A DNA stretch of 6,780 nucleotides from Chloroflexota bacterium (GTDB lineage Bacteria > Chloroflexota > UBA6077). Shown here one piece after another: positions 1 through 6,780 of this stretch. Every line of letters starts with the position of its first letter. Position 1 is the stretch's first letter. The position numbers and the translations under genes are program-made. The stretch lies in assembly GCA_023380955.1 (NCBI GenBank), contig JAMCTB010000246.1, forward strand, positions 1 through 6,780, given 5' to 3'. Under the pieces are notes generated by a model. It made no database searches, was not told where the DNA came from, and saw only the letters and a list, made by a program, of their open reading frames with translations.

Positions 1-113
1 GCGAGGAAGCCTCCCGTGCCGCCGCAGCCCACCAGGACGATGGTCGCCTCCCACTCGTAGCGAAACAGCTGTCCCTCTGCTTGGCTCGGGGTCGGGTCAA
101 TCCTGTAGGCCAT
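1..113 (-). CDS. PRTRC ThiF-family (E1-like) protein, N-terminal fragment
   Basis: Partial gene running off the left edge; 37 complete residues are visible. The ATG at 113-111 has a GGAGG six bases upstream, which fixes the start. Residues about 27-37 read IVLVGCGGTGG, the glycine-rich nucleotide-binding loop that opens the Rossmann-like fold of ThiF/MoeB/E1 enzymes. These adenylate the C-terminus of a ubiquitin-like protein using ATP. The start lies inside the end of the JAB gene (17-base overlap), so the two are probably translated together. In PRTRC cassettes a ThiF protein regularly follows protein A, which supports the call. The catalytic cysteine and zinc-binding cysteines would lie outside the window, so activity cannot be judged. 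Confidence 0.85.
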   Translation of the reverse strand, partial: MAYRIDPTPSQAEGQLFRYEWEATIVLVGCGGTGGFL

Positions 114-735
114 CGCCGACCTCCATCGGTTCCTGATCATCGATCGGGTCGAAGTTGACGTCGCGGAAGACTCCCAGGTCGCCGTCGAACACGGAGTCCC
201 AGGGGACCGGCAGGAAGTAGCCGTAGGCGCCGACCCGCAGGGCCACCTCCGGGCAGTCACCGTCGAGCTTACCGAGGACCCCGTAGAGACAGAGCCCCTG
301 CTCGTCGGCGTCGTCGGTCGGGCTGAAGTGGGCGGGGTAGTTGCGGTGGGAGTGGATCTGGAGCACCACGTGCGACGGGGGCCGGTAGAAGATGTTCTCC
401 GGACCCACCACCTGCTGTGGCAGAAGGAATCGATAACCTGAGGGCCCCTCGAAGGTAACGGCCAGTAGGACTTCGCGGCCATAGAGACTCCACAGGCGAG
501 GTGCATCCACGATCCTGTCCCATAGGTCCACGGGCAGCCGCCCCGCTCGAAGGGTGCAGTTAGGGTAGATCGGCGGAAGGCCTCTAACCTGGGCAGTGGC
601 GACCGGCACTCTGACCTCCAGGTACCGATTCTCCGCAGCGAGGTAGAGGCCGTCGCCTGCGAGAACGTAGTCGTAGGCCTGCCCGCGCCGGGCCGGAAGT
701 CCCTCTCGGGCGATCAGGTAATCCACCAGAGGCAT
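97..735 (-). CDS. PRTRC system protein A: JAB/JAMM metallopeptidase
   Basis: 212 residues from the ATG at 735-733. Residues 128-141 carry a full JAMM signature: HSH, seven residues, then SPTD (His128, His130, Ser138, Asp141), the zinc ligands and catalytic serine of the Mov34/MPN/JAB family. Glu96 or Glu88 upstream may be the catalytic glutamate. JAB enzymes cut isopeptide or peptide bonds after ubiquitin-like proteins; in PRTRC cassettes this protein sits beside ThiF. The likely substrate is the ubiquitin-like protein encoded in the same operon (inference). Start choice: a GTG at 741 overlaps the stop of the upstream gene (GTGA), but a GGAG lies seven bases before the ATG at 735, so the ATG is preferred; the difference is two residues. 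Confidence 0.85.
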   Translation of the reverse strand: MPLVDYLIAREGLPARRGQAYDYVLAGDGLYLAAENRYLEVRVPVATAQVRGLPPIYPNCTLRAGRLPVDLWDRIVDAPRLWSLYGREVLLAVTFEGPSGYRFLLPQQVVGPENIFYRPPSHVVLQIHSHRNYPAHFSPTDDADEQGLCLYGVLGKLDGDCPEVALRVGAYGYFLPVPWDSVFDGDLGVFRDVNFDPIDDQEPMEVGDGLQD

Positions 736-737
736 CT

Positions 738-1469
738 TCACGCTCCAATCCGGAAGGCATCGCCGACCCGAAGCTGCGGTACCAGGTCCTCCAGGGGATA
801 GGTAGGCTGCCCGTCCAGTTCCGCCCAGAGCAGCCCGATATCCTCCATGTGCCGCTGGGACTTCCCCCGAGCTGTGTCACCGGTAACGGAGAAGTAGCTC
901 TCGAAGAAGGCCTCGGGCACCTTCGCCGGGTCGGCGGGGAAGAGGTGAGAGCCGGTGCAGACCCTGCCGGAGTCGAAGGCGTTGTAGGCGGGGCAGTGGT
1001 AGAGTTGGTCGTCCTCCGAGCGCGGCCTGGCCCTGGCGGCGAAGACGTAGGGAGCCTGGCGCGCCGGCATGCACACGAAGACCAGGCCGGGCATGGGGAG
1101 CCGCAGGCGGCGCGGCTTCGTGTCGTACCTCTCTCGCAGCCGCACCTTCCAGACCCGGGGCTCCCGCCAGAGGGCGACGCGCACCCCGCTGGAGGTCTTC
1201 GCCCACCACAGGACTTCGGGGGGAAGGAGCCCGGTGCTGAGGTCGAGCTCGCTGGCCAGGGCGTGGGCGACGTCCAGAGCTGAGACCAGCTTGGTCCGAA
1301 CCACGCCCTTTGCGTAGTCGTGGACCACGACGCTGTCCTGGTGGAAGTCCAGGCGGAGCCGAAGCGGATCCTCCTCGACCTCCGCCTCAGGAGGCAGCGT
1401 CCAGCGGTAGGGTGATCGGTTCGTCGTGGAGGATGGGGACGAGCCCCTCCTGGGTGATCTCGCAGGCAT
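738..1469 (-). CDS. PRTRC system protein B: E2-like fold protein
   Basis: 243 residues from the ATG at 1469. Residues 81-101 (LLPPEVLWW, then a VALW strand) and residues 159-178 (CPAYNAFDSGRVCTGSHLFP) match the PRTRC B pattern, in which a Gly-Arg-Val-Cys block follows a 'P-x-x-N-x-x-D' segment. I recall this family being assigned to a prokaryotic E2/UBC-like group; Cys171 would then be the thioester cysteine. Role: probable carrier between the ThiF enzyme and a target (inference). Start: AGGAGG lies seven bases before the ATG, a very strong site, giving an 83-base overlap with the end of the upstream gene. The alternative is a weak start inside the family domain with no ribosome binding site. 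It ends in a TGA that overlaps a GTG of the next gene. Confidence 0.75.
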   Translation of the reverse strand: MPARSPRRGSSPSSTTNRSPYRWTLPPEAEVEEDPLRLRLDFHQDSVVVHDYAKGVVRTKLVSALDVAHALASELDLSTGLLPPEVLWWAKTSSGVRVALWREPRVWKVRLRERYDTKPRRLRLPMPGLVFVCMPARQAPYVFAARARPRSEDDQLYHCPAYNAFDSGRVCTGSHLFPADPAKVPEAFFESYFSVTGDTARGKSQRHMEDIGLLWAELDGQPTYPLEDLVPQLRVGDAFRIGA

Positions 1470-2250
1470 GAAACCTCCTGATCCGTTGGTACTCGAGGTG
1501 AGCGTCGCGACCGAGGGCGGCGTGGAGGAGCTGGGCGAAGTGGGCCGGAGGGTCAGCCTCCAGCCAGGAGGCGAACTCGGCGATGCGGTCGAGGATGCCG
1601 CTGGCCCGTCGCCACTGCTCGGCCAGCTCCAGGACGAGCTCTCTGGTCCAGTCGGCGTCGATGACATCTACCTCGTCATCGAGATCGAGGAAGACGGTGT
1701 CCGTGGCCCCCCAGAGCCAATCGGCGAACTCGGCGGCAGCGACGTAGGGGGTCCCGTCCAAACGCTCGTGCAGATTGACTGGGTCGAACCCCTGCTCCGG
1801 GATCTCCGAGAGGACGTGCCGGGGGACGTGCGTCTCGGCGGCATCGAGGATGGAAAGCCGGGTGTCGTAGCCCGGCTCGAAGGGCTGGGCGCACAGGGCG
1901 AAGAGAAGCAGCTCGCCCGTCCTGAGATCCAGCTCGTGGAAACGTTCGTAGCCCCACGCGTTTCTGACAAAGGGGATGCCGCAGGCTATCTGCCCGTAGT
2001 CGTCAACCTCGTAGACCGGGAAGTACCGAGCCTCCACCAGATGGAGGAACTCCCAGACTCTGGCGTTCTCCCGACTGCCGCCTTCCTGGTGCGCGGCCAG
2101 GATCTCGGCCTCGTCCTCCGGGAAGATCTCCCGCAGGATGCGCCGGAAGGCCTGGTAGGCCTCGTGGCTCTCCAGGAGGGCCGCGACGGACGCCGGGGAG
2201 ACCGGCGCCCGCCGCAGCTTCCGCCCGAGGGCCTGCAGGCCGGGGATCAC
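1387..2250 (-). CDS. Uncharacterised protein in the PRTRC F position
   Basis: 287 residues, start GTG at 2250 overlapping the TGA of the upstream gene (GTGA), with no clear ribosome binding site of its own, so translation is probably coupled. The protein is acidic and looks mainly helical and soluble, with no signal peptide or membrane segment. A central aromatic-rich block at about residues 70-105 (FLHLVEARYFPVYEVDDYGQ and following) and helices at about 205-255 rich in Trp, Leu and Glu are the main visible features. In PRTRC cassettes a helical protein called F lies between C and B, so position points to F or to the helical partner domain seen with ubiquitin-like bacterial operons. I do not recognise a diagnostic F motif. 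The call rests on context; function unknown. Confidence 0.6.
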   Translation of the reverse strand: MIPGLQALGRKLRRAPVSPASVAALLESHEAYQAFRRILREIFPEDEAEILAAHQEGGSRENARVWEFLHLVEARYFPVYEVDDYGQIACGIPFVRNAWGYERFHELDLRTGELLLFALCAQPFEPGYDTRLSILDAAETHVPRHVLSEIPEQGFDPVNLHERLDGTPYVAAAEFADWLWGATDTVFLDLDDEVDVIDADWTRELVLELAEQWRRASGILDRIAEFASWLEADPPAHFAQLLHAALGRDAHLEYQRIRRFHACEITQEGLVPILHDEPITLPLDAAS

Positions 2251-2651
2251 CGGGGCGGCAAGCGCCGGATCGCCTCCACAGCCTGGCGAGTTGCCCGGGT
2301 GTACGCTTCGACCTCGGCTATGGCGAGGTTGATCTCCGGCCGGCGAGTCGCCGCGGCATCCAGGTCGAGCTCGCCACTGTCGTCGAGCAGCTCCGCGGCC
2401 AGTTCCAGAACCCGAAGCCGCATCTCCGGTACGCGGCGCAGTACTGCCACGACCTCGGGTGGACGGCGCCCCTTGGTGCCGATCCGCTTGCTGAAGGTGT
2501 AGGCGGTGTCCTCGCCGCGCTTCTCCTCTCGGGTGTCGGCGTTACCTAGCTCGGGGAAGAACTCGGACAGCTGCTTGCGGACCTCTTCCACGGGGAGCTT
2601 GGGGTCGGGGTCGGGGAACTCGCGGCCATCGTAAATGAATATCCGGGCCAT
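2247..2651 (-). CDS. PRTRC system protein C: ubiquitin-like protein with C-terminal extension
   Basis: 134 residues. The ATG at 2651 has GAGGAGG seven bases upstream, which excludes a longer reading that runs upstream into the previous gene. Residues 5-61 match PRTRC C closely: YDGREFPDPDP near the start, a helix with 'VEEVRKQLSEFFPEL', a YTF strand and a closing IGTKG at 57-61. This short protein family is thought to have a ubiquitin-like beta-grasp fold. Members I know end about where GTKG occurs. Here a further 73 residues follow, predicted by eye to be two or three charged amphipathic helices (about 65-90 and 105-130). The free glycine end needed for adenylation would thus be exposed only after cleavage, possibly by the JAB protein of the operon (inference). 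Confidence 0.8.
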   Translation of the reverse strand: MARIFIYDGREFPDPDPKLPVEEVRKQLSEFFPELGNADTREEKRGEDTAYTFSKRIGTKGRRPPEVVAVLRRVPEMRLRVLELAAELLDDSGELDLDAAATRRPEINLAIAEVEAYTRATRQAVEAIRRLPPR

Positions 2652-2671
2652 GGCTACCTCCTCACGACTTG

Positions 2672-3226
2672 CTAACCGAATAGCTTGAGCTGGCCACCCG
2701 CGGCTTTCGGCGCGGCAGCTGGCACGCCTTGCCCACCAGTTGAAGCTGCGGGGGGGGCGTCGCCTCGCCTGGACGAAAGCTCCCTGGATCGGCCCCCGGG
2801 CGAGGAGTCGGCCCTTGCCCGCTGTGCGGCGGGATAACGGGAATGCTCTCTCCACTGCTCCTCCGCCTCTTCCACCAAACCCACGAGTGCGCCCAGCGCG
2901 TCTACGAGATCCTCGACTTCTGCCGAGCGCACTAGCGGATCGCACCCTTCGGCGCCCACGGCCAGGAGGGCCTGGAAGCGGTTTTCGGCCGTTGGGTGCA
3001 GGGTCACGACGAGCTTGAGTGCTCGCCGGATGCCGGGGGACGCGGCACTCGTTGCCTCTTCCCCCGAGCCTTCCACCCCTTCCTGCGAGCTGCCTTCGAT
3101 GTCGGCCGCTCGGCCCGTGCAGGGTACCGGGGACCTGCTTGGCTCGGGCTCACCGCCAGGGCGGGCTAACCCGGTTTGTCCTTCGTCTTGTGCCGAGAAG
3201 TTGGCAGTCTCGTCCTGTATTTCCAT
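2672..3226 (-). CDS. PRTRC system protein E-like, with C-terminal sliding-clamp motif
   Basis: 184 residues; ATG at 3226 with GGAGG ten bases upstream. Three parts are visible: an acidic, Gly/Ser/Glu-rich disordered N-terminus (1-65), a small folded domain (about 69-132) with a beta segment LKLVVTL, then 'CDPLVRSAEVEDLVDALGAL' and a helix ending in SRYP, and a disordered Ala/Pro/Gly/Arg tail. The folded part and the position just before protein C fit PRTRC E, a family with a small domain followed by a low-complexity tail; the match is suggestive, not certain. The last residues are GGQLKLFG (177-184). QLKLF (179-183) fits the QLxLF clamp-binding consensus, and the next gene upstream encodes a clamp. 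It could therefore tether PRTRC functions to the clamp (inference). Confidence 0.65.
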   Translation of the reverse strand: MEIQDETANFSAQDEGQTGLARPGGEPEPSRSPVPCTGRAADIEGSSQEGVEGSGEEATSAASPGIRRALKLVVTLHPTAENRFQALLAVGAEGCDPLVRSAEVEDLVDALGALVGLVEEAEEQWREHSRYPAAQRARADSSPGGRSRELSSRRGDAPPAASTGGQGVPAAAPKAAGGQLKLFG

Positions 3227-3289
3227 CGTAGGAGTTCCTCCAGTCCTACCCAGCGTGGAGAACGGCGGCTCGTTTTCGACGCGCGTCCC

Positions 3290-4426
3290 TCACGCCGCTT
3301 CCGCCTGGCGTCCAGCGAGGGCACGATCCCAAATTGGCATTATTACCCAGAGGTCCGCCCCCTCGGCATTTCCTGCCCCCCGAACCACCACCGGGGTCTG
3401 AGGGCTGTTCCAGCTCAGAAGCAGCTCGGGACCATCCGGGGCCTCCAACAGGTCGGAGAGGAGCCGGGTGTCGAGAGCCACGGCCCCGGGGTCGCCCTCC
3501 AATTCGGCGGCCAGCTCACTCCTGGCATCCCCGGTGTCATCTCCCTTCGCCAGCAGGGTCAGCTTCCCACGTGCGGCATCCAGAAGCACCGGCCTTGCTT
3601 CCCCACCCCCGAAAAGCCCGGCGACCCGGACAGCCTGGCGGAGGTCCGCGGCGCTTGTCCGCACTCGTGTGCGCCATCCCTCAGGGATAACTCGGTCGAT
3701 GTTCGGGTACTGGCCCTCGACGAGGCGGCTGAAGAGCCTGGTATCCCTGGTGGCGAAGTAGATTCCCCTGCCGTCGTGCGTGAGAATGAGGCGAACAGCT
3801 TCGGCGCCCTGCAGAAGCCGACCGCCCTCGAGCACGGACCGGCCCGGAACCAGCAATTGGTGTACAGATCCGGCCATCTCGGGAATGCGAACTCGCGCGA
3901 GGCGAAGGCCGTCGGCAGCCGCCAGGGTGAGCCCCTCGGGGCCGAAGGCGAACAGCACGGAGGTTAGGATCGGCCGCGAATTGTCCCGAGCGGCGGCGAA
4001 GGCCACCCGTTCTATCGCACGGCCGAGCTGTCCGGCATCGATGTCGATGACCCCGGACTCATCCGCGGCCGGGAAGACCGGGAATTCATCTGGATCGAGC
4101 CCTGCCAGGTTGGCGGTGAACCGGCCGCAGCTCACCTTTGCCCGGTCACGCCCGCTTACGGAGAGACGGAGCGGTTCTGCCGGCAGCTGCCCGACGTACT
4201 CGGCAAGAAGTCTGGCAGGAATGGCGGCCCGTCCAGGAGAGGCTATCTCCGCCGCCACGGACGTCGAGACGCCGATCTCCACGTCCGTGGACGCGAGATT
4301 TAGCCGTCCGTACTCGCATTCCAACAACACGGCCTGCAGGATGGGTACTACCGGCTTGGCCGGCACCGCCCGCCCGACGAGGCGCAGGGCGCGGGCGAAG
4401 CTCGACTGATCTACGGTGAAGTCCAA
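3290..4426 (-). CDS. dnaN: DNA polymerase III beta subunit (sliding clamp)
   Basis: 378 residues, the usual clamp length, with all three domains. Recognisable family blocks are PILQAVLLE and LASTDVEIGV near the start, IPARLLAEYVGQLP, DEFPVFP at about 135, NSRPILTSVLF and ADGLRLARV in domain 2, SRLVEGQYPNIDRVIP, and a C-terminal WVIMPI (360-365) matching the conserved 'VIMPM' end that helps form the partner-binding pocket. A 13-residue tail follows this, longer than in most clamps. The ring encircles DNA and tethers polymerases and repair proteins. Start is TTG at 4426, with AAGGAG nine bases upstream. It lies 45 bases after the radical SAM gene and 63 bases before the PRTRC E-like gene, not beside dnaA or recF, so it is probably an extra, element-borne clamp. 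Confidence 0.93.
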   Translation of the reverse strand: MDFTVDQSSFARALRLVGRAVPAKPVVPILQAVLLECEYGRLNLASTDVEIGVSTSVAAEIASPGRAAIPARLLAEYVGQLPAEPLRLSVSGRDRAKVSCGRFTANLAGLDPDEFPVFPAADESGVIDIDAGQLGRAIERVAFAAARDNSRPILTSVLFAFGPEGLTLAAADGLRLARVRIPEMAGSVHQLLVPGRSVLEGGRLLQGAEAVRLILTHDGRGIYFATRDTRLFSRLVEGQYPNIDRVIPEGWRTRVRTSAADLRQAVRVAGLFGGGEARPVLLDAARGKLTLLAKGDDTGDARSELAAELEGDPGAVALDTRLLSDLLEAPDGPELLLSWNSPQTPVVVRGAGNAEGADLWVIMPIWDRALAGRQAEAA

Positions 4427-4471
4427 GGGCTTGTTCTCCTTTTGCGCTGACTGTCGGCCTGTCTGGACAGT

Positions 4472-5026
4472 TCAAGGGCGTGCGATCGAAAGGCCGTGCT
4501 TATGGGTGTGCGGCGACGACGCCAGGGCTGAGGCAGGATTGGCGATGAGCCGTTGGTTGCGCGATCCCCTCCACTCTCCAGCTCCTTCGGAGAGCGCCGC
4601 CACGAAAGGACCCTCTATCAACAGGTCGGTGAGATGAAGGGACTCGGCGACCTGCACTTCGGAGCATCGGGCCAGCGCCTCCAGGGTGTACCCCGTGTAC
4701 ACCACGATGTGGAGCCCGCGCTCCTTGATCTGGCGCAGCAGCGTCAGCAGTCCAACCGGCTGGAAAAAGGGCTCGCCCCCATTCACCGTCATCCCGTCAC
4801 GGGGTTCGCCGAAGCGGTCGAGCACGGCGGCGACCGCGTGGGCCACGCTCATCTCGACGCCGCCGGCCGGATCGTGGGTCTCCGGGACGTAGCAGCCGGT
4901 TATCTGTAGTCTGGCGTCTGATGGGATGGCGCAGCTTCCGCTGCCGGGTGCGATCCACAACAAGATCGTTGGAGCTAGTCCGTGGACTTGGCACCCAACG
5001 GGTCTTCGGTAGTAGCTGGTCGGCAC
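4472..5026 (-). CDS. NrdG-like radical SAM family protein lacking the usual CxxxCxxC
   Basis: 184 residues if started at the GTG at 5026. Residues 83-86 (GGEP, in VNGGEPFFQP) are the SAM-binding motif; VVYTGYTLEAL and WRGSRNQ (152-158) are typical of the anaerobic ribonucleotide reductase activase (NrdG) group, which uses a 4Fe-4S cluster to make a radical. At the cluster site, family members have GC-xxx-CxGC followed by a Pro-Glu-Thr; here only one Cys directly precedes YVPETHDP (Cys45), with others at 12 and 32. No neighbouring frame restores the motif. The start is unsure: candidates are GTG 5026 (52-base overlap with the zinc-ribbon gene), TTG 4963 (no overlap), or further upstream; none has a good ribosome binding site. 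No nrdD is present, so the partner is unknown. Confidence 0.75.
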   Translation of the reverse strand: MPTSYYRRPVGCQVHGLAPTILLWIAPGSGSCAIPSDARLQITGCYVPETHDPAGGVEMSVAHAVAAVLDRFGEPRDGMTVNGGEPFFQPVGLLTLLRQIKERGLHIVVYTGYTLEALARCSEVQVAESLHLTDLLIEGPFVAALSEGAGEWRGSRNQRLIANPASALASSPHTHKHGLSIARP

Positions 5027-5163
5027 TTCATCGCCGCGAGTCTCTCCGGCCAGATGTGGCGGTGGTAGCATCGCTTGCAGATGCCGGGTGGGCAGTTCTT
5101 GTAGTGCCATGGCGGCCGTTTCTTGCAGATGCGACACACCCGTTGCTTGCCCTGTCGCGTCAT
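4975..5163 (-). CDS. Small zinc-ribbon protein
   Basis: 62 residues, basic. ATG at 5163 with GGAGG eight bases upstream. Residues 10-36 hold CRIC (Cys10, Cys13), a His at 20, Cys24, then CKRC (Cys29, Cys32) followed by HRH, a pattern of a two-knuckle zinc ribbon or treble clef with an extra cysteine. Such small basic zinc proteins bind nucleic acid or act as adaptors; no family is recognised. It is the first gene of the minus-strand array and overlaps the probable start of the radical SAM gene, so it is likely cotranscribed with the rest. The cysteine spacing and the good ribosome binding site are the reasons for treating it as real rather than chance. Confidence 0.65.
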   Translation of the reverse strand: MTRQGKQRVCRICKKRPPWHYKNCPPGICKRCYHRHIWPERLAAMKCRPATTEDPLGAKSTD

Positions 5164-5236
5164 GTGTTCGTCCTCCGTCCACGTAGCTCCTTCGGCTCGG
5201 CGATCCCTGCCGCACTCGACTGAAGGCGCCTGGCCC

Positions 5237-5258
5237 GGTTGCATTTCAGGTTGCATTT
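5237..5258 (+). repeat. Tandem direct repeat GGTTGCATTT, 12-base period
   Basis: Two perfect 10-base copies at 5237-5246 and 5249-5258, separated by CA. A 12-base period is slightly more than one helical turn, so both copies lie on nearly the same face of DNA. It lies between the divergent minus-strand array and the toxin-antitoxin genes, about 45 bases before the antitoxin start. An operator for the Xre-type antitoxin is the most natural reading (inference). Confidence 0.6.
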
Positions 5259-5268
5259 GCGGTAAGAT
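5239..5268 (+). promoter_or_regulatory. Possible promoter of the toxin-antitoxin pair
   Basis: TTGCAT (5239-5244) and TAAGAT (5263-5268), 18 bases apart, resemble a weak sigma-70-type -35 and -10 in an otherwise GC-rich region. The -35 falls inside the first direct repeat, which would allow autorepression by the antitoxin. Each box matches only in part (3 of 6 and 4 of 6), so this is tentative. No clear promoter was seen for the divergent minus-strand array in the same gap. Confidence 0.3.
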
Positions 5269-5301
5269 GGCCCGCAGATAGCCGAGCGCGTGGAGGTACC
5301 T

Positions 5302-5667
5302 GTGGCCCTGGCATTTGATCGGGCGGCACATAATCAGGCGACTCGAACCGATCTGCCGACGGTGGTGCGATACCTTCAGGATGTTCTGGGTCAGCGCCTC
5401 ACGGCAGTCATCGCCGGTGTGAGCGACGCCAAGGCAGTGGGTAGGTGGGGCCGGGGCGTCCAGACCCCGCATCCCGAGGCCGAGAAGAGGTTGCGCCTCG
5501 CCTTCCAGATCACGCAGTTGCTGCTCAGCGCCGAGTCTCCCGGCACCGTCAGGGCCTGGTTCATCGGGATGAACCCTGAACTGGACGACGAATCGCCGGC
5601 CCTGATGCTGGCCAAGGAACCCGCAAAGGTGCTCCAAGCCGCCCGTTTCTTCCTGGCCAACCCTTGA
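5302..5667 (+). CDS. Xre/MbcA/ParS-type antitoxin of a RES toxin
   Basis: 121 residues. Start is the GTG at 5302, with GGAGG five bases upstream; an in-frame GTG at 5290 lacks a site. An N-terminal helical region (about 15-70) contains a helix-turn-helix-like stretch, RLTAVIAGVSDAKAVGRWGR, and the C-terminus (about 85-121) has WFIGMNPELDDESPALMLAK and a closing VLQAARFFLANP, the pattern of the MbcA/ParS/Xre C-terminal toxin-binding domain (DUF2384). It should bind and block the RES toxin encoded next and repress the shared promoter. The TGA stop overlaps the TTG start of the toxin gene, which fits coupled translation and tight stoichiometry. Confidence 0.85.
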   Translation: MALAFDRAAHNQATRTDLPTVVRYLQDVLGQRLTAVIAGVSDAKAVGRWGRGVQTPHPEAEKRLRLAFQITQLLLSAESPGTVRAWFIGMNPELDDESPALMLAKEPAKVLQAARFFLANP

Positions 5668-6308
5668 CTGACATCGCTGAGGCAGTGCCTCCGTCGCAGC
5701 CGCTTTGCCGAATAGGCTACCTCCCCGATCCCCTTGCCTGGCCGCCGCTGCGATACGTTGGCTCCGGTCGGTTTGACGACCCGATGCGCCGGTTCCGCAC
5801 TCTGTACGCGTCGGAGCGGCGCCTGGGGTGCTTCGTCGAGTCCCTGGCGCGGTACCGGCCGAGCCCTCGGGCCCTGGTAGAACTCCGCAACGTGATAGGG
5901 GCTCCCGATTTTTCTCTCCTTCCCGTGGTGCCCGGCGACTGGTGGGTGAGACGATGTGTCGGACGGTTCCACTTGAATCCCGGCCAGAAATGGCTCGATC
6001 TGCGCGTGCTCGGAACCCGCGAGGCGCTGCGTGTGGAACTGGCCGATACCCTTCTCCGGCTCGATCTGCCCGATCTGGACGTGAGCAGCGTCCGAAGCCT
6101 GAACCGCGATCTCACCCGCGCCATAGCCAGGTGGGCCTACGAGCATTCCTACAACGGGGTCGCTTACACGAGCCGATTCGATGACGGCCTGGATTGCTGG
6201 GCGCTCTTCGAGGGGGCCTCCCTCCGGCCAGCGGGCCCCCCGGAGGTGATCCTTCCCGACGACCCTGATCTCAGGGAGACCCTCCGTCTGTTCAACCTGA
6301 GTTTCTAA
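5664..6308 (+). CDS. RES-domain toxin (NAD+-degrading family)
   Basis: 214 residues, start TTG at 5664 within TTGA, overlapping the antitoxin stop; no separate ribosome binding site. RES toxins are named for a conserved Arg, Glu and Ser and destroy cellular NAD+. All three can be placed: Arg36 in RYVGSGRFDDP (30-40), Glu59 in CFVESLARYRP (56-66), and Ser170 in GVAYTSRFDDG (165-175). FVESLARYRP and the SRFDDGLDCWALFE block are family hallmarks. Length is close to typical RES proteins and there is no frameshift, so the toxin looks intact. A GTG at codon 8 is an alternative start. It faces away from the replication and PRTRC genes and probably stabilises the element that carries them. Confidence 0.88.
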   Translation: MTDIAEAVPPSQPLCRIGYLPDPLAWPPLRYVGSGRFDDPMRRFRTLYASERRLGCFVESLARYRPSPRALVELRNVIGAPDFSLLPVVPGDWWVRRCVGRFHLNPGQKWLDLRVLGTREALRVELADTLLRLDLPDLDVSSVRSLNRDLTRAIARWAYEHSYNGVAYTSRFDDGLDCWALFEGASLRPAGPPEVILPDDPDLRETLRLFNLSF

Positions 6309-6618
6309 ACGCGCAAGCCCGCTCAAGCCGCTCGGGCAGGTTTGGCATACCCATTGGACCCTTCCAAGACAACCAGAGCTATCCCCCATGCCTTGAAAAC
6401 GCCCTACCCCTTCCGACACCCGTCTGTCGCGGCTCAGGCAACCAACCCCCGGTACACAGCCTCTGGCGCCCCATGCCCGCAAGACCGGTGAACCCTCTCG
6501 ACCATCAGGCTTCAGATGTCGATGAGTTCACTCGTTGGATCCCGCCCGCCCCACCAACGAATCGACTTCGCCGAACCTGGCTTGCCTGCAAGTTAGAAGG
6601 CTCGCCCGGCCCATTGGG
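6309..6618. other. Gene-free gap with short hairpins
   Basis: 310 bases between the convergent ends of the toxin gene and the right-edge radical SAM fragment. No convincing coding region, tRNA or repeat array seen on either strand. It holds a weak GCCCG/CGGGC hairpin just after the toxin stop (6317-6337), and a perfect 7-base inverted repeat TCGTTGG/CCAACGA at 6532-6538 and 6554-6560 with a 15-base loop. Composition is C-rich on the plus strand, unlike the flanking genes. Confidence 0.5.
6317..6348 (+). terminator. Weak possible terminator after the RES toxin gene
   Basis: GCCCG (6317-6321) pairs with CGGGC (6333-6337), followed by AGGTTTGG. The five-base stem lies nine bases after the toxin stop codon. 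The stem is short and the T-run poor, so position is the main support. Confidence 0.22.
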
Positions 6619-6632
6619 TCAGGCGGGCAGCC
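6599..6632 (-). terminator. Hairpin at the end of the second radical SAM gene
   Basis: GGCTCGCCCG (6599-6608) pairs with CGGGCAGCC (6624-6632), nine base pairs with a single bulged C. It spans the stop codon (6619-6621) of the minus-strand gene and is followed, in that direction, by TTCTAACTT, a modest T-rich stretch. A rho-independent terminator is possible, though the right arm lies in coding sequence and may be chance in GC-rich DNA. Confidence 0.3.
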
Positions 6633-6780
6633 CCATGTCGATGACCCGCTGGTTGCCGCTCCCGGTCCAGGGTCCGGCACTCGAGGCGAGGGCTTGAATG
6701 TAGGGTCCGTCGATCAGCATGTCGATGCTGTCGAGGACAGCGCCGACCGCTGGCTCCAACCGCGCCCGGGCGAGGAGATC
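6619..6780 (-). CDS. Second NrdG-like radical SAM protein, C-terminal fragment
   Basis: The gene enters from the right edge and only its last 53 residues are visible, ending in TGA at 6621-6619. It reads IDMLIDGPYIQALASSAGPW followed by TGSGNQRVI, the C-terminal signature of the NrdG-like group (a DGP/EGP turn, then Trp-x-Gly-Ser-x-Asn-Gln). Over 29 aligned positions it shares 16 identities with the equivalent part of the radical SAM protein encoded at 4472-5026, so the two are paralogues. The iron-sulfur and GGEP motifs are outside the window. It lies on the same strand as the PRTRC array but is separated from it by the divergent toxin-antitoxin pair. Confidence 0.75.
   Translation of the reverse strand, partial: DLLARARLEPAVGAVLDSIDMLIDGPYIQALASSAGPWTGSGNQRVIDMGLPA

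Follow-up and report, generated by a model that had tools for sequence, protein, structure and literature searches.

The ubiquitin-like gene cassette on a 6,780-nucleotide stretch of DNA from a Chloroflexota bacterium (GTDB lineage UBA6077; NCBI GenBank assembly GCA_023380955.1, contig JAMCTB010000246.1, positions 1 to 6,780, forward strand; the whole stretch is called the window here) carries its own gene for a β sliding clamp, dnaN, and encodes a protein with a conserved C-terminal pentapeptide of the clamp-binding type. The minus-strand order in the window is dnaN, E, C (ubiquitin-like), F, B (E2-like), A (JAB-type) and, cut by the window edge, the beginning of an E1-like ThiF gene, the letters being those of the PRTRC cassettes. 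With a little better than even confidence, we favour the view that the cassette conjugates a ubiquitin-like protein and is linked to DNA replication via the sliding clamp, with the protein in the E position (hereafter E) as the adaptor. The tail and the clamp together give a concrete hint of where PRTRC-type ubiquitin-like cassettes may work, namely on clamp-loaded DNA.

The C-terminal tail of the E-position protein

The window E protein terminates in KAAGGQLKLFG, in agreement with a first-pass annotation of the window, made from the letters alone, which had reported the ending GGQLKLFG. That annotation had also called the protein PRTRC E-like. Its position in the gene order upholds the name, but no Pfam or NCBIfam match was obtained at E≤1, PRTRC_E (TIGR03741) included, and the label is positional only. 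An initial homologue search returned one near-copy and one distant homologue with the core in common, the linker hardly so, and the end GQLSLFP. A profile of 11 sequences then gave a set of 114 homologues, the sequences scored being the 7998 candidates that shared most words. All 114 were also significant with a profile of the core only, i.e. they are found independently of the tail.

A strict motif, Q[LM]x[LM]F ending no more than 4 residues from the C-terminus, was present in 99 of the 114 homologues, and 53 of the 99 read QLSLF. Under a relaxed definition (Q[LMFP]x[LMF][LF] with at most 12 residues after it) the count rose to 113/114, the sole exception being a 104-amino-acid fragment. Conservative variants included QLSFF, QFTLF, QLPLL, QMTFF and QPSLF, and two copies had the motif slightly further in. 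Shuffling the tails of 113 sequences gave an expectation of 0.002 strict motifs compared with the 99 observed, a count over related proteins that does not stand for independent events. After clustering at 60% identity, 27 of the 31 clusters had at least one strict member, and 23 consisted of strict members only. The tail motif of E is beyond chance.

The structural context of the tail is that of a flexible end. An AlphaFold2 (AF2) model built with 58 sequences placed a three-strand-plus-helix core at residues ~69–128 between two disordered flanks, and ten-residue blocks over 71–130 had predicted local distance difference test (pLDDT) values of 84–97. The linker between core and tail varies from 39 to 78 residues (median 49), and the glutamine at position 1, the hydrophobic residue at position 4 and the aromatic residue at position 5 of QxxLF are kept within the flexible region. 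With its short motif conserved beyond a long, variable linker, the tail looks like a docking peptide. QxxLF is given as the commonest bacterial clamp-binding motif in passages of PMC12309361, and as frequent at the C-terminal ends of transposases and other enzymes in passages of PMC4549789.

Tails of the same type close the E-place protein in other lineages. On nine cyanobacterial plasmids (eight of 11 records, together with Gloeothece) this protein ends exactly in QLSLF (eight Nostocales) or QLNLF (Gloeothece), and all nine plasmids have their own dnaN, approximately 7–22 kb from E and on the same strand; no confident alignment was obtained between the cyanobacterial protein and window E. The Trichormus variabilis plasmid (L048:1972-24654) carries much of a replisome around its ubiquitin-like cassette, including genes for a helicase, a primase-polymerase, dnaN, dnaX, an exonuclease, delta, delta' and a polymerase-like protein. 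In a divergent Chloroflexota locus (L079, on a 3.97 Mb contig of genome G344) the last residues of the E-place protein are QMTLF, and close to its gene lies one for a divergent clamp with a partly changed pocket. Read by eye, the same protein (L079:7990-8715) has apparently two tandem core-like segments before QMTLF. In L082 and L084, QLGLF occurs elsewhere in the E-place protein, and was noticed after the extra dnaN copies of these genomes were known.

The dedicated clamp and the rest of the cassette

A scan with an E2-like alignment against one genome per species gave 32 loci, mostly in Chloroflexota assemblies. Ten cassettes resembling that of the window have a readable E end (the window, L009–L013, L015, L018, L019 and L095, the last added from a later genome search), and in 10/10 this end carries QL[KST]LF. 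The dnaN neighbours, which the annotation had proposed to survey, lie directly upstream in eight of the ten (window, L009, L010, L011, L012, L015, L018 and L095), and in the window the two genes share a strand with 63 bases between them. There are two departures: L013, taken up below, and L019, in which dnaN is 5.6 kb upstream with genes for TniQ and a Mu-type transposase in between, an insert that we take to be Tn7-like. Further along the region, a superfamily 2 (SF2) helicase gene encodes a protein ending GQL[AGS]LF in 4/4 complete copies (L012, L013, L018 and L095).

The annotation's full-length dnaN just upstream of E proved to be correct: the window clamp is full length, has all three Pfam clamp domains above cut-off and scores 200 bits with TIGR00663 (cut-off 137.65). 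The clamps of the other eight dnaN-bearing window-like cassettes are 51–66% identical to it, whereas the identity is 27–38% for 20 other clamps from the same genomes and related ones. A tree of the nine operon clamps and 19 others (three additional copies and, from each of 16 genomes, the top-scoring copy, assumed to be the host clamp with no check of its neighbours) split the two groups, with one label change in all 200 bootstrap trees. At the positions that we take, from E. coli work, to form the peptide pocket (E. coli numbers), L155, D173, R176, L177, F/Y241, P242, M362 and P363 are present in 9/9 window-like clamps; T172 is replaced by A, and H175 by L or F, which is the case for the majority of the aligned Chloroflexota clamps. 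Since the window-like clamps keep this pocket, binding of E to the cassette clamp is predicted to be likely.

The operon clamps are unusually poor in lysine. They contain four lysines in the window, L009 and L011, three in L010, two in L015, L018 and L019, and none in L012 and L095. The six genomes harbouring eight of the loci have 16, 8, 15, 9, 11 and 12 lysines in their best-matching other clamp, so that the operon clamp was the poorer in 6/6. Third-codon-position GC content (GC3) was similar, at 0.78–0.97 for the operon clamps and 0.85–0.89 for the others. A conserved acceptor lysine was not found on the clamp, as no column has K in as many as six of the nine window-like clamps. Counted in five loci (window, L009, L012, L095 and L020), the F protein has 0–1 lysines and the JAB protein 0–2 in the window, L009 and L020, and the ubiquitin-like, B, helicase and AAA proteins of the same loci mostly have a larger lysine share among their basic residues. 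With 0–4 lysines set against 8–16 in the other clamp, the cassette clamp is more likely to be a platform than a target.

The tail also tends to go with an extra dnaN across genomes. In a sample of 400 Chloroflexota genomes, 31 had a Prok-E2_D match (27 over its cut-off), and one of these, G008, was left out of the test, its E being unreadable. At least two dnaN matches were present in 5/5 genomes with the strict motif (G001, G003, G004, G076 and G344) and in 5/25 others (Fisher p 0.0018), or in 7/7 and 3/23 (p 5.9e-5) if L082 and L084 are counted as having the motif. These tests are uncorrected for kinship. Some dnaN matches are fragments or score under the family cut-off, as the extra ones of G344 do, and among the 25 other genomes many have distant E2-D loci without any E seen.

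The enzymatic part of the cassette (Table 1) is intact at its key residues. The K-G columns of the ubiquitin-like protein are invariant among 13 aligned sequences, the catalytic Cys of the E2-like protein in 11/11 sequences, and GxGGxG with the Cys of E1 in 8/8 (L009 and L012 whole, together with six relatives, the window E1 being cut); the JAB protein keeps HxHx7SxxD in 9/9. The catalytic residues that a conjugation system needs are all present in the cassette, and conjugation activity is predicted. The ubiquitin-like protein of one Pseudomonas aeruginosa relative stops exactly at GAKG, hinting that what follows GTKG in the window protein is an extension that was added or can be removed. No family match was found for the F-position protein in Pfam or NCBIfam.

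Table 1. Cassette features in the window, with the evidence for each
Feature	Positions	Strand	Evidence
dnaN, dedicated β sliding clamp; 378 amino acids, TTG start, 4 lysines, peptide pocket kept	3290..4426	-	PF00712, PF02767, PF02768 and TIGR00663 over cut-off
E-position protein; 184 amino acids, ATG start; disordered N-tail, beta-beta-beta-alpha core, disordered linker	2672..3226	-	114 homologues, AF2 model
C-terminal clamp-binding-type pentapeptide QLKLF, residues 179-183 of 184	2678..2692	-	translation, conservation in homologues
Ubiquitin-like protein (PRTRC C-like); 134 amino acids; beta-grasp part ending GTKG, then extension	2247..2651	-	PF14454, 48.8 bits, over cut-off
F-position protein; 287 amino acids, one lysine	1387..2250	-	position as in canonical PRTRC loci
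E2-like protein (Prok-E2_D, PRTRC B-like); catalytic-type Cys157; start uncertain, about 1427	738..1427	-	PF14460, 64.3 bits, over cut-off
JAB/JAMM peptidase-like protein (PRTRC A-like), HSHRNYPAHFSPTD	97..741	-	TIGR03735, 57.5 under 101.8; PF14464, 19 under 25
E1-like ThiF protein, start only (GCGGTGG), rest cut by window edge	3..113	-	translation

Several neighbouring genes recur. Upstream of dnaN a radical-SAM gene turns up repeatedly; in the window it is represented by an NrdG-like piece with Fer4_12 (4472–4994, minus strand), which lacks the CX3CX2C cluster motif and therefore looks broken, that motif being present in the corresponding genes of L010, L011, L012, L015, L016, L018 and L095. 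A second radical-SAM piece, judged by eye, is cut by the window edge (6619–6780, minus strand). Divergent from the cassette, a small partner gene (5290–5667, plus strand) is followed by a gene for a RES-domain protein (5664–6308, plus strand), likely a RES-type toxin–antitoxin pair, and a similar pair adjoins L009. In L012 (217-2235) and, by sequence similarity only, L095 (reverse, 147-2716), a gene pair for an AAA ATPase and a DUF1257 protein stands upstream of the radical-SAM gene and dnaN, and by position is possibly part of a larger cassette. Some copies of the cassette are decaying, since the E2-like gene of L018 is split by a group II intron-type insert with reverse transcriptase and maturase domains (L018:10451-12858) and its E has an in-frame stop, and since L016 has no recognizable E or C and a truncated clamp.

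A model for the clamp link and its alternatives

In the model that we favour, the core of E would contact the rest of the cassette, and QLxLF on its flexible tail would dock in the peptide pocket of the cassette's own clamp, encoded by the neighbouring dnaN. The DNA-loaded clamp would be a platform from which E1, E2, the ubiquitin-like protein and the JAB peptidase reach proteins on DNA that is being replicated, whether that of the element or that of the host. It is unlikely that the lysine acceptor of window-like cassettes is the clamp itself; the target may lie among other DNA-bound proteins, and the nearby QLxLF-ended SF2 helicase is a candidate partner. Binding by E, recruitment, target and benefit of the link between cassette and clamp are what we infer. 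The annotation's central proposal, that E docks on this clamp and links the cassette to replication, gains partial support from a motif conserved after a disordered linker, from its recurrence in E-position proteins of lineages without a confident mutual alignment and its tendency to go with extra dnaN genes, and from the intact pocket; NCBI's own models do not support membership of the PRTRC_E family.

A number of observations weigh against this model. Comparisons did not establish homology between the E proteins of different phyla, and when the clamp and E were folded as one chain with AF2 the clamp was confident and the E tail had pLDDT <50. Ten canonical proteobacterial PRTRC E proteins (L001, L002, L008, L111–L113 and L118–L121) have no QLxLF; their tails are mostly short and hydrophobic, of DLxSLL, ASF or ELF type, e.g. 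TDLASLL, LDASLF and ASFELF, and could be either a different docking peptide or a degenerate version of the clamp motif. In a far Chloroflexota group, in which the E homologue lies downstream (after E1 in L020 and L030, whose genes were listed), the 13/13 E homologues found end in [QE][TA][LP][RK]LF, either a weaker form of the clamp motif or a different motif, and each of three genomes searched (G009–G011) had one dnaN match. The far-group tails may correspond to QAMSLF, which we take to be the hexapeptide of E. coli delta. The SF2 helicases of this group (18 loci seen among L020–L039) have a C-terminal S[LM]F[EQA]W[AG] instead of QLxLF.

Linkage of tail and clamp is also incomplete. L013 has the motif and no dnaN at the locus, its assembly having a single dnaN match elsewhere. 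A dnaN-linked E without the motif, which the annotation had named as evidence to the contrary, occurs in the distant L036 cassette, where an E ending PRMFE lies directly before dnaN, and in 0/9 window-like cassettes that hold dnaN; the E homologues of L035 and L089 also lack the motif. At least two dnaN matches were counted by eye, fragments included, in 48 of the 400 genomes, and an extra dnaN is common without the cassette. Three genomes with a second dnaN and Prok-E2_D (G231, G267 and G274) showed no motif in the stretches read. The branch parting the operon clamps from the others is weakly supported (60/76), and E may bind the other clamp of the same genomes instead, because its peptide pocket is similarly intact. 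Lysine poverty is a feature of one clade, since it is absent from a cyanobacterial plasmid clamp, with 34 lysines, and from the F proteins of two canonical loci, with 7 and 16. Lastly, no demonstration of conjugation by this type of cassette was found in the literature covered.

The alternative with most in its favour, though we regard it as unlikely, is that E simply serves the replication or maintenance of the element, with the clamp used for loading or processivity, and that the adjacent ubiquitin-like genes have a different purpose. It would account for the Trichormus cassette lying amid replication genes, for extra clamps without a cassette and for the motif on the nearby SF2 helicase. 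However, the gene for E immediately precedes that for the ubiquitin-like protein in the cassettes read from the window-like, cyanobacterial and proteobacterial groups, the downstream E of the far Chloroflexota group being placed differently, and no replication gene beyond dnaN and the helicase was recognized in the open reading frame (ORF) lists of L009, L012, L013 and L095, of which only nine ORFs, from L009 and L012, were searched with Pfam. The clamp could instead be the substrate, as in PCNA ubiquitination, with E bringing the E2 to it. A complete set of E1, E2, JAB and ubiquitin-like catalytic residues beside an adaptor with a clamp motif is what such a system would need, and the 34 lysines of the cyanobacterial plasmid clamp would suit it; the window-like clamps, two of them without any lysine and none with a widely shared lysine column, make it improbable, even if a lysine-bearing host clamp or a non-lysine site could be modified instead.

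Some phage and transposon proteins compete for the host clamp, and E might likewise be a host-directed inhibitor or hijacker, its tail competing for the host clamp and the extra clamp being a resistant replacement. The pairing of motif and extra clamp, the intact pocket of the other clamp, and L013 with its motif and single dnaN match would all fit. Yet the same pocket is present in the cassette clamp, which would then be bound too, no relative was confirmed in IMG/VR with clamp, E and E2-like queries, and several copies are on contigs of 0.1–2.7 Mb; we consider this explanation very improbable.

Returning to the model of E as an adaptor on a clamp platform, a bolder version of it is possible, and we put it forward tentatively. 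The window-like cassettes may represent an independently evolved, clamp-directed, ubiquitin-type signalling system of bacteria, in which the nearly lysine-free clamp would be an inert platform, E and the helicase would be docked via QLxLF, proteins at the fork would be tagged and untagged, and lysine avoidance in the clamp, F and JAB would be protection from self-tagging. Lacking acceptor residues would profit a protein that stays beside an active lysine-tagging machine.

Relation to known systems

The closest relatives of the cassette are the PRTRC systems of proteobacterial plasmids (NCBIfam TIGR03735–TIGR03742). Comparison of the window and L009 with four canonical loci (L001, L002, L111 and L112) showed the identical gene order E-C-F-B-A-ThiF, with dnaN added in front in the window cassette. 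The Prok-E2_D and Prok_Ub domains, over their Pfam cut-offs in the window, are held in common with PRTRC, but the PRTRC models for A, B and C all scored under cut-off with the window proteins (57.5/101.8 bits for TIGR03735, 60.6/131.45 for TIGR03737 and 44.9/45.95 for TIGR03738), and a profile comparison of window-type E with six canonical E proteins reached P 0.0087 only. The gene for the PRTRC ParB partner was not seen in the window, the neighbours not having been scanned with a ParB model. We found no dnaN on 3/3 canonical plasmids searched (W02, W11 and W14), nor on W12 (Chlorohelix) and W13 (Deinococcus), on neither of which an E was read.

The enzyme set itself is already known, as operon type 6d of Iyer, Burroughs and Aravind (2006, PMC1779556, in the sections on this operon type). 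As here, that operon has a small ubiquitin-like protein with a C-terminal glycine, a helical protein, an E2-like protein with a conserved Cys, a JAB protein with an N-terminal domain and a separate E1. Those sections do not mention a clamp-binding tail, and in the text of the paper, figures apart, neither dnaN nor replication appears, ‘clamp’ occurring only as an author name. PMC4963859 concerns a different ubiquitin-like cluster, to judge from the part available, and a search of PMC11354881 found no mention of clamp, PRTRC, PCNA or DnaN. No title or abstract opening in the literature naming PRTRC addresses mechanism or clamp coupling. A search on ubiquitin-like cassettes and the sliding clamp, with bioRxiv and most subscription journals outside its range, gave no relevant report; in the literature searched, such coupling, with a conserved clamp-binding-type tail as the link from a ubiquitin-like cassette to a clamp of its own, appears to be undescribed.

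Transposases and polymerases with a C-terminal QLxLF end in the same pentapeptide, according to passages of PMC4549789 and PMC12309361. The difference here is that the tail belongs to a protein of a ubiquitin-like cassette that encodes its own clamp. Whether the cassette works on clamp-loaded DNA is testable with peptides, purified clamps and the plasmid of the cultured Trichormus (Anabaena) variabilis ATCC 29413 (NC_007412.1), on which an E homologue was found.

Coupling of ubiquitin-family conjugation to a sliding clamp is familiar from eukaryotes, in which PCNA is ubiquitinated and SUMOylated (Rad6-Rad18, Ubc9). Eukaryotic and bacterial clamps differ in domain number and, unlike PCNA, the clamp of the window-like cassettes is almost lysine-free. 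If the proposed link is true, these cassettes would be a bacterial counterpart, separately arrived at, of ubiquitin signalling at the eukaryotic clamp.

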